From Chloroflexota bacterium (GTDB lineage Bacteria > Chloroflexota > Limnocylindria > P2-11E), in contig VBEY01000103.1 of NCBI GenBank assembly GCA_005889295.1, positions 1 to 32,268 of the forward strand: a stretch of 32,268 bases of DNA, given 5' to 3'. The notes under the pieces were generated by a model. The model searched no databases. It worked only from the letters and a program-made list of their open reading frames with translations, and was not told where the DNA came from. Shown here piece by piece: positions 30,463-32,128 of this stretch (its first letter is position 1; each line of letters begins with the position of its first letter). Both the position numbers and the translations under genes were made by a program.

Positions 30463-30483
30463 CGTAAGGGGTTTCACGCGTCT

Positions 30484-30575
30484 CGACTCCCTACGCTGAC
30501 ATTACTCAGATCAGGTTCTGGGGTCTGCGGCCATCCGCACTCTCAGCGCCCCCTTCGTCGGGCGCTCCCCCGTCG
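30484..30575 (-). ncRNA. TPP riboswitch aptamer (THI element)
   Basis: Read on the minus strand, the conserved THI-box parts occur in order: CTGAGAG (ending 30546-30541), then ACCCCAGAACCTGATCTGA, then GTAATGTCAGCGTAGGGA (to 30488). P1 is closed by CGAC (30575-30572) with GTCG (30487-30484). A side stem AGCGCC/GGCGCT precedes CTGAGAG. The usual CTGG...CCAG helix is CTGA...TCAG here, a compensated change that supports real structure. The aptamer senses TPP. With the terminator downstream it should switch off the lipoprotein-thiN-ykoEDC operon when TPP is plentiful. Confidence 0.96.
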
Positions 30576-30596
30576 TATTCAGTTGTGTGCGTCTGA

Positions 30597-30602: not shown

Positions 30603-30719
30603 GCCTCCCTCGCTCCCCGCTTCGCGACGCTCGCCACGACCGAACCGCAACCCTCGTAGCGCCCTCCCGTCGCTGAACGGGGCATCCCGGTCGCTCACGC
30701 TTTGCGACGGGAGGTACGA

Positions 30720-31946
30720 ATGCCGAACACCATTTCCGCCGGCGACACCGCGTGGCTCCTGGCGTCCGCGGCGCTCGTCATGCTCATGACCCCCGCGCTC
30801 GGATTCTTCTATGGCGGGCTCGTCCGACGGAAGAACGTCCTCGCGACGATCATGCACAGCTTCTTCATCCTGGCGCTCATCAGCGTCCAGTGGGTCCTCT
30901 GGGGCTACACGCTGGCATTCGGACCTGACCACGGCGGTCTCATCGGCGGCCTTGACTGGCTCGCCCTCCGGGGCGTTGGCCAGGACCCGGGACCGTACGC
31001 ACCGACGGTTCCGCACGAGGCGTACATGGTGTTCCAGATGATGTTCGCGGTGATCACTCCGGCGCTCATCACCGGCGCGTTCGCCGAGCGCAAACGCTTC
31101 AAGGCCTTCGTCATCTTCACTCTGCTCTGGGCAACCTTCGTCTACGACCCCGTGGCGCACTGGGTCTGGGGCGGCGGCTGGCTCGGACAGCTCGGCGCGC
31201 TCGACTTCGCGGGCGGCACGGTCGTGCACATCACGAGTGGCGTGTCGGCGCTCGTCGCCGCGCTCGTCCTCGGGCGGCGTGTCGGATTCGGTCGCGAAGC
31301 GATGGATCCCCACGACGCGACGATGACCGTTCTCGGCGCGTCACTCCTCTGGTTTGGTTGGTTCGGCTTCAACGCCGGAAGCGCGATCACTGCCGGCGGT
31401 CTCGCGGCGAACGCGTTCGTCGTGACGAACACTGCGGCGGCGATGGGCGCGCTTACGTGGATGACCGTCTCATGGCTGCACAAGGGCGCGCCGAGCGTGC
31501 TCGGTGCCGCAGCCGGCGCGGTCGCCGGTCTCGTCGCGATCACACCCGCGTCCGGCTACGTCGACGTCTCAGCGTCGATCCTCATCGGTCTCGGCGCCGG
31601 CGTGTTCTGCTACACCGCGATCCAGCTCACCAAGCGCCTCAAGGTGGACGATGCCCTCGACGTCTTCGGTGTCCACGGCGTCGGCGGTGCGTGGGGCGCG
31701 CTCGCGACCGGCATCTTCGCGACCGTCGCTGTCAACAGCGGCGCGAAGGACGGTCTTCTCTACGGCAACCCGGGACAGCTTGGCATCCAGGCGATCGCCG
31801 TCGTCGCATCGATCGTTTACTCGGCGGTCATGACGTTCGTAATTTTGAAGCTCATCGATGTCTTCGTCGGACTGCGCGTGCCCGAGAGCGAGGAAGTCCT
31901 CGGCCTCGACGCATCGCAGCACCGCGAAGCCGCATACCAGATTTAA
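30720..31946 (+). CDS. amt: Ammonium transporter (Amt family)
   Basis: A 408-residue protein with about eleven transmembrane helices. Amt features include GDTAWLLASAALVMLMTPAL, GFFYGGLVRRKNVL, MVFQMMFAVITPALI (outer Phe gate region), AHWVWGGGWL and DFAGGTVVHITSG. The paired pore histidines are His170 (VVHITSG) and His319 (GVHGVGGAWG). It moves ammonium/ammonia across the membrane as a trimer. ATG 30720 is chosen over an in-frame ATG at 30702 because GGGAGGT lies just before it and the N-terminus then fits the family. No PII (glnK) gene follows within the window; instead a 37-residue membrane peptide starts ten bases after the stop. Confidence 0.96.
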   Translation: MPNTISAGDTAWLLASAALVMLMTPALGFFYGGLVRRKNVLATIMHSFFILALISVQWVLWGYTLAFGPDHGGLIGGLDWLALRGVGQDPGPYAPTVPHEAYMVFQMMFAVITPALITGAFAERKRFKAFVIFTLLWATFVYDPVAHWVWGGGWLGQLGALDFAGGTVVHITSGVSALVAALVLGRRVGFGREAMDPHDATMTVLGASLLWFGWFGFNAGSAITAGGLAANAFVVTNTAAAMGALTWMTVSWLHKGAPSVLGAAAGAVAGLVAITPASGYVDVSASILIGLGAGVFCYTAIQLTKRLKVDDALDVFGVHGVGGAWGALATGIFATVAVNSGAKDGLLYGNPGQLGIQAIAVVASIVYSAVMTFVILKLIDVFVGLRVPESEEVLGLDASQHREAAYQI

Positions 31947-31956
31947 GGAGGCCGAG

Positions 31957-32070
31957 ATGGAGATCCTCGCATTCGTGTCGTTCGCGGTCCTGGTCGTCGC
32001 GTGGCTCGTCGCTCCGACGCGCGGCAACATCATCGTGGTCAGCCACGCGGAGGAGTCCAAGGCGGCCTAA
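31957..32070 (+). CDS. 37-residue single-helix membrane peptide linked to amt
   Basis: A very short gene starting at ATG 31957 with a strong AAGGAGG five bases upstream and ending at TAA 32070. The peptide has one hydrophobic helix (MEILAFVSFAVLVVAWLVAP) followed by a polar tail, TRGNIIVVSHAEESKAA. It begins ten bases after the amt stop and would be made from the same mRNA. I recognise no family. By analogy with other tiny membrane subunits encoded next to transporters, it may stabilise or regulate Amt, which is inference. Confidence 0.7.
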   Translation: MEILAFVSFAVLVVAWLVAPTRGNIIVVSHAEESKAA

Positions 32071-32094: not shown

Positions 32095-32128
32095 GAGGAC
32101 CAAGCTCGGAGACGGGCTTGGTCCTCTT
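32095..32128 (+). terminator. Terminator-like hairpin after the amt operon
   Basis: GAGGACCAAGC (32095-32105) and GCTTGGTCCTC (32116-32126) form a perfect 11-bp stem with a ten-base loop. Only TT follows directly, with further scattered T residues (TTCGTGTCCGTCGTTCTTC). It lies between convergent genes, so it probably ends the amt transcript and may also act on the opposite one. Confidence 0.75.

Follow-up and report, generated by a model that had tools for sequence, protein, structure and literature searches.

Behind the ammonium transporter gene amt of a Chloroflexota bacterium lies an open-reading frame of only 37 codons, which raises the question of whether it encodes a protein and, if so, whether this protein belongs to the transporter. 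Amt/Mep/Rh proteins are textbook channels, and PII/GlnK, the one bacterial partner of theirs that is widely known, is described as being linked to amtB in nearly every bacterium and archaeon (PMC3831643). The window, that is, the whole stretch of 32,268 nucleotides that was analyzed, comes from an incomplete genome, in which it is contig 108, and contains the following features around this frame:

30471-30581, minus strand: TPP riboswitch (RF00059, 66.2 bits)
30720-31946, plus strand: amt, ammonium transporter, 408 codons, stop codon TAA at 31944-31946
31945-31951, plus strand: Shine-Dalgarno sequence AAGGAGG of the small ORF, read from the sequence
31957-32070, plus strand: small ORF of 37 codons, single-span family, start codon ATG at 31957, stop codon TAA at 32068-32070
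32095-32126, plus strand: 14-bp hairpin, possible terminator of the amt-peptide unit (z -4.9 in a 70-nt stretch)

Translation of the small ORF gives a peptide of 37 amino acids, MEILAFVSFAVLVVAWLVAPTRGNIIVVSHAEESKAA. As the initial annotation had described, its start lies 10 nt past the amt stop and is preceded by a strong ribosome-binding sequence. This sequence, AAGGAGG, overlaps the amt stop codon and stands 5 nt before the ATG; Shine-Dalgarno-like sequences recur ahead of the peptide ORF in relatives. In its sequence the window Amt itself is unremarkable (PF00909, 440 bits; TIGR00836, 480 bits), with 2b2f as the nearest solved structure. The hairpin starts 24 nt beyond the small-ORF stop. 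Since its T tract is weak and it was not called in the terminator scan, a shared transcript of amt and the peptide remains only likely.

Other elements were seen around the locus. The TPP riboswitch lies just upstream of amt on the opposite strand, and in several relatives a TPP-riboswitch-like sequence was seen by eye after the peptide instead. An element of the form CCGAACCGCAACC is found upstream of amt in the window (about 30640-30665) and at loci L006, L009, L010, L013 and L075, and a similar element lies between amt and a divergent glnA-like gene in L017 and L018; this element, seen by eye only, is possibly a nitrogen-regulator site. The end of amt and the peptide recur in near-identical form on another contig of this genome (L002, G000:C4:1-1879), with one synonymous change in the ORF, and the two loci are probably strain variants assembled apart.

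The initial annotation had held that a missing reading frame after amt in relatives, or frameshifts between close relatives, would count against it, and neither was observed. In the 28 genomes of the window's taxonomic family, 24 amt 3′ ends were readable, including the near-identical second contig from the same genome, and the ORF follows 22 of them at a distance of 5-217 nt; one of the remaining two has the ORF upstream, and the other, a second amt copy, is without it. Every one of the 10 same-genus loci retains an intact frame. The synonymous-site test proposed at the same time pointed to purifying selection, with 58 amino-acid changes across 12 close pairs compared to 114.4 expected for an equal number of random changes and with none of 4000 simulations as low as 58; pairs of unequal length were compared over their first 24 codons only. 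Loci L006 and L024 differ at 17 bases and at one residue (dN 0.012, dS 1.0). Taken singly, other pairs show a weak excess of silent changes (p = 0.09 for L005/L007, p = 0.08 for L001/L010 and p = 0.22 for L080/L084). The result for the 12 pairs shows that the small ORF is a real, conserved protein-coding gene that is selected as a protein.

A search for amt-linked small ORFs in relatives, another of the suggested checks, recovered the peptide widely. The class survey comprised 177 genomes and the phylum set 400 Chloroflexota genomes. From these, 194 unique amt 3′ ends were scanned, after exclusion of those with the 3′ end missing or with less than 160 nt behind it, for a Shine-Dalgarno-preceded hydrophobic ORF of 22-60 amino acids with the motif F-x6-W-x3-P within 520 nt of amt. 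This motif ORF was present in 76 of the 194 flanks, while the reverse strand of the same flanks gave 0 ORFs with the motif and 7 without. Flanks of Amts at least 63% identical to the window Amt contained 71 motif ORFs, 8 other hydrophobic ORFs (all of which keep W-x3-P and have the F replaced) and 4 PII genes, with 31 containing none of these. At 45-63% identity, the counts were 4 motif ORFs, 23 PII and 23 with none, and below 45% they were 1 motif ORF, 1 hydrophobic ORF without the motif, 8 PII and 20 with none. PII and the peptide were never found together within 520 nt of one amt among the 194 flanks.

A profile built from 20 peptides of the family matched 52 of the 177 class genomes at E ≤ 1e-3; two more (G173 and G176) gave weaker matches, yet have the peptide beside amt, bringing the total to 54, and amt is present in 103 of the 177. 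The spacing differs between groups. In family f5 of the same class the peptide begins 15-34 nt after amt. In genus g21 it has only 26-29 residues, often stands behind two amts in tandem and lies 190-490 nt (once about 590) from amt, so that, judged by these gaps, it may be a separate transcript there. In other genera of g21's family, where genes were named by eye from their translations, gltB, glnK or nothing nameable stands behind amt, and there is no peptide ORF. Part of the L090-L121 group (family f3) forms a large Amt clade, many members of which are followed by a gltB-like gene rather than by glnK or the peptide. Of 17 places fetched from outside the class, 13 adjoin amt, with the peptide downstream in ten and upstream in three. 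Two members of the peptide family stand in tandem behind one amt at L143, L249, L214 and G340:C344 (genomes G211, G227, G429 and G340). Members or look-alikes were also seen in fetched stretches without amt at L136 (G219:C8), L135 (G291:C505) and L138 (G285:C48), the last of which resembles the peptide of G398.

In a specificity search, a profile of 47 members was run against 67 genomes at E ≤ 0.01. It matched 35 of 36 carriers, partly by construction, as many of them gave rows to the profile, and 5 of 31 comparison genomes, of which the match in G426 is real and the rest are weak (E 0.005-0.009); in 29 of these 31 genomes glnK is next behind a scanned amt. All 15 named matches were to Chloroflexi MAGs. 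The proper survey covered Chloroflexota, and other phyla were represented by three more distant plasmid Amts, from Gemmatirosa, Singulisphaera and Alicyclobacillus (56%, 47% and 53% identical), none of which has the peptide ORF within 900 nt downstream.

The distribution of the peptide follows the phylogeny of the transporter. For the Amt tree, 182 rows were reduced to 146 by removing amt matches under 300 residues and then near-copies; the tree was built quickly, with no mixture model, and drew a program warning about long branches joined in other parts of it. In this tree, 54 of the 57 peptide-carrying rows fall in one clade of 64 rows (SH-aLRT 98), and the state 'peptide downstream' requires 12 label changes compared to 42.9 in shuffles. 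Within the clade, the peptide is downstream in 50 rows, upstream in 4 and not adjoining in 10, and glnK is next to amt in none, and the neighboring branches are glnK-linked. The earlier remark that the peptide occupies the usual place of glnK holds well beyond the window. The ten members without an adjoining peptide are mostly second or tandem copies, an excuse that L174, L224, L095 and L096 do not have. The carriers outside the clade are L140 (G203) and, on a far branch, L205 (G255, peptide downstream) and L252 (G398, peptide upstream). On this far branch, with Amts at about 35% identity, a similar peptide stands once after and once before amt, which is possibly a separate, independent association.

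Residues of the clade Amts were compared with those of PII-linked Amts. At positions that we assign to membrane helices, the clade is set apart by I50 and Q57, K128 and L135, and M242 and T249, pairs whose members are seven residues apart. At positions that we take to lie on the cytoplasmic face, residue 188 is mostly hydrophobic in the clade and often K or R in PII-linked Amts, K is less frequent at 257, residue 302 is mostly Q or E in the clade and often R in PII-linked Amts, and residue 404 is mostly not R. Because the two groups differ by descent, these differences are not independent evidence and serve as a lead only, since common descent alone could explain them.

The relation to PII at the locus is a strong tendency to alternate and not a strict exclusion. 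PF00543 matched 6 of the 177 class genomes, none of them a carrier (control 13 of 14), but the other 171 reflect a general absence of PII, so carriers are not singled out there. The window peptide has no PF00543 match, and no PII was found in the genome of the window. Among 36 carriers from other parts of the phylum (a set slightly different from the 36 of the 47-member search, and including several incomplete genomes), a clear PII is present in G345, G429, G203 and G277, weak matches of 22-26 bits occur in G274, G312 and G354, and 29 have none. The PII gene of G203 is found upstream of the amt that bears the peptide and adjoins another, more distant amt copy. In G426 (L202, G426:C23), the gene order is amt, glnK, peptide, which is the only amt found with both and shows that the peptide and GlnK can coexist. 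A strict reading of the peptide as standing instead of GlnK is weakened by this locus and by the carriers with PII elsewhere in the genome.

The peptides were collected as ORFs of 22-60 amino acids with a hydrophobic span, W-x3-P and one of F, C, S, V, A or L at W-7, giving 85 distinct sequences (33.7 effective) that were aligned on W. The family consists of predicted single-span peptides of 25-49 amino acids with the core F-x6-W-x3-P, in which conservation falls on W itself, on a small residue at W-11, on F at W-7, on L or M at W-4 and on P at W+4; in the window peptide these are A5, F9, L12, W16 and P20, followed by a polar tail. Given the selection by motif, W and P were excluded from a test of whether conservation concentrates on one helix face (conservation moment at 100 degrees), which gave p = 0.0014, or p = 0.017 when W-7 was excluded as well. 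One of 85 peptides has K or R ahead of W, and 64 of 85 have one among the 8 residues that follow P. Basic residues flanking a span mark its cytoplasmic side under the positive-inside rule, so this distribution would place the tail in the cytoplasm. Tail length is free to vary, from 5 to 28 residues. AlphaFold2 modeled helix 2-18 of the window peptide with pLDDT 92 and 85 for the first two ten-residue blocks and placed the tail poorly, which is as much as a single short peptide can show.

The peptide is a member of an unnamed family that is absent from the family libraries searched. No Pfam or NCBIfam model exceeded its cut-off for the window peptide, for others scanned singly or for the 47 members, and KdpF and MetS were not among the families that these members matched at E ≤ 0.1. 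A PDB profile search returned nothing significant for the family; its match to PetM of cytochrome b6f (E 0.072) was discarded as not significant. A description of the peptide was not found in a search of open-access papers.

We consider it fairly probable, from gene order and conservation, that the peptide, a member of an unnamed single-span family that goes with one Chloroflexota Amt clade, is a membrane subunit or modulator of Amt, serving as a small additional component of the transporter. The new small subunit proposed in the initial annotation is thereby retained as the best reading, its subunit role being the inferred part. The peptide would be made from the amt transcript and inserted in the membrane with its N-terminus outside and its tail inside. 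It would then pack on the outside of the Amt trimer through the stripe of conserved residues (W-11, W-7, W-4, W and W+4), and its binding would stabilize the trimer or set its activity. The cytoplasmic tail would come to lie near the C-terminal region of Amt, which is the docking place of GlnK in other bacteria, and this placement may matter most, given that most carrier genomes have no PII protein. The ten clade members without an adjoining peptide, the wide gaps in g21, the joint presence of glnK and peptide in G426 and the copies away from amt in fetched stretches of G219 and G291 count against a subunit of Amt, and the conserved stripe could instead serve homo-oligomerization. A further step, speculative and rather unlikely, is that a built-in single-span subunit took over from PII/GlnK in the whole Amt clade, such that PII was lost, the docking face drifted (188, 257, 302 and 404 losing basic residues often kept in PII-linked Amts) and the peptide came to set channel activity within the bilayer, with G426 and G203 as relics of the handover.

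The best rival to an Amt subunit is a turnover adaptor of the MgtR/MgtU kind, which would control the amount of Amt by delivering it to a membrane protease, for instance FtsH, or by shielding it from that protease, and which we regard as unlikely. MgtR and MgtU play such a part for MgtB. The peptide shares its size class and design with MgtR, MgtS and MgtU as a small-protein review describes them (PMC10710835). The free variation in tail length fits such a role, as do the AA ends found in 22 of 22 downstream peptides of the window's family and in 30 of the 85 distinct peptides overall. An AA C-terminal end resembles a degron; however, it is not general in the family and may reflect GC-rich composition, and the phylum-wide tie to a target gene is unusual for adaptor-type small proteins, which to our knowledge are not usually bound to their targets in this way. 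It is quite unlikely that the peptide is a small membrane protein co-regulated with Amt that has no contact with it and serves nitrogen uptake through some other partner or task. The copies away from amt (G219 C8 and G291 C505), the 190-490 nt gaps in g21 and the second association on a far Amt branch (G255, and G398 with the peptide upstream) are consistent with this reading, but in dozens of genera the peptide keeps its place next to amt, before or after it, although the more distant genes vary between relatives. A type I-kind hydrophobic toxin, or a leader peptide serving the next gene, would have the observed size and hydrophobicity, but we judge both very improbable and dropped them, because the place beside amt is fixed while the downstream sequence differs between relatives, W, P and a single face are conserved, and the HokA match (13.6 bits, cut-off 89) is far below the cut-off and occurs in only 1 of 47 members scanned. 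The chance of a fortuitous open frame is virtually nil, as the many spurious ORFs of a GC-rich genome would account neither for the purifying selection and intact same-genus frames nor for the strand difference in the flank survey, and it was dropped as well.

If the Amt-subunit reading is true, the peptide would be a second, unrecognized way of equipping or controlling ammonium uptake, mostly without PII, and the natural Amt-peptide pairs would offer a ready set for testing channel tuning by one helix. The shortness of the peptide may explain why no model of its family exists in the libraries searched.

The initial annotation had likened the peptide to tiny subunits of transporters and oxidases, and these likenesses are not of equal standing. 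FixQ/CcoQ, the small subunit of cbb3 oxidase, has one membrane span and then a polar tail, so the likeness is one of shape only, and the direct neighbor of the peptide in the loci examined is amt and not an oxidase gene. PF05545 matched two members at 16.4 and 17 bits, below the gathering cut-off of 29, and 3 of the 47 members at E ≤ 0.1 (best 0.0028), with no match for the window peptide; a FixQ relative was therefore dropped. The likeness to small transporter proteins stands, as the peptide is, by prediction, a single span of under about 50 amino acids like AcrZ. GlnK/PII resembles the peptide in being encoded directly beside amt and in probably acting on the same transporter, but GlnK is soluble and trimeric and blocks the channel from its cytoplasmic side, whereas the peptide is a membrane span of 25-49 amino acids with neither PII sequence nor the PII domain of about 100 residues. 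The nearest published idea found is sP36 of Methanosarcina mazei, likewise a small protein that acts on an Amt, and one whose host organisms mostly lack GlnD; it is described as a soluble, hexameric protein of 61 amino acids without a transmembrane helix that acts as an adaptor between GlnK1 and AmtB1 (PMC10714827). Compared by description only, the peptide differs from sP36 in having a membrane span and in mostly occurring without PII. Among the small-protein modulators covered in the cited part of the review, which include AcrZ, MgtS, MntS and SgrT and do not there include one with Amt as its target, AcrZ, MgtS, MntS and LucB are single-span or tiny proteins that modulate or stabilize a transporter (PMC10710835), as is proposed here for the peptide, which differs from them in that its gene accompanies that of the presumed partner throughout a phylum.
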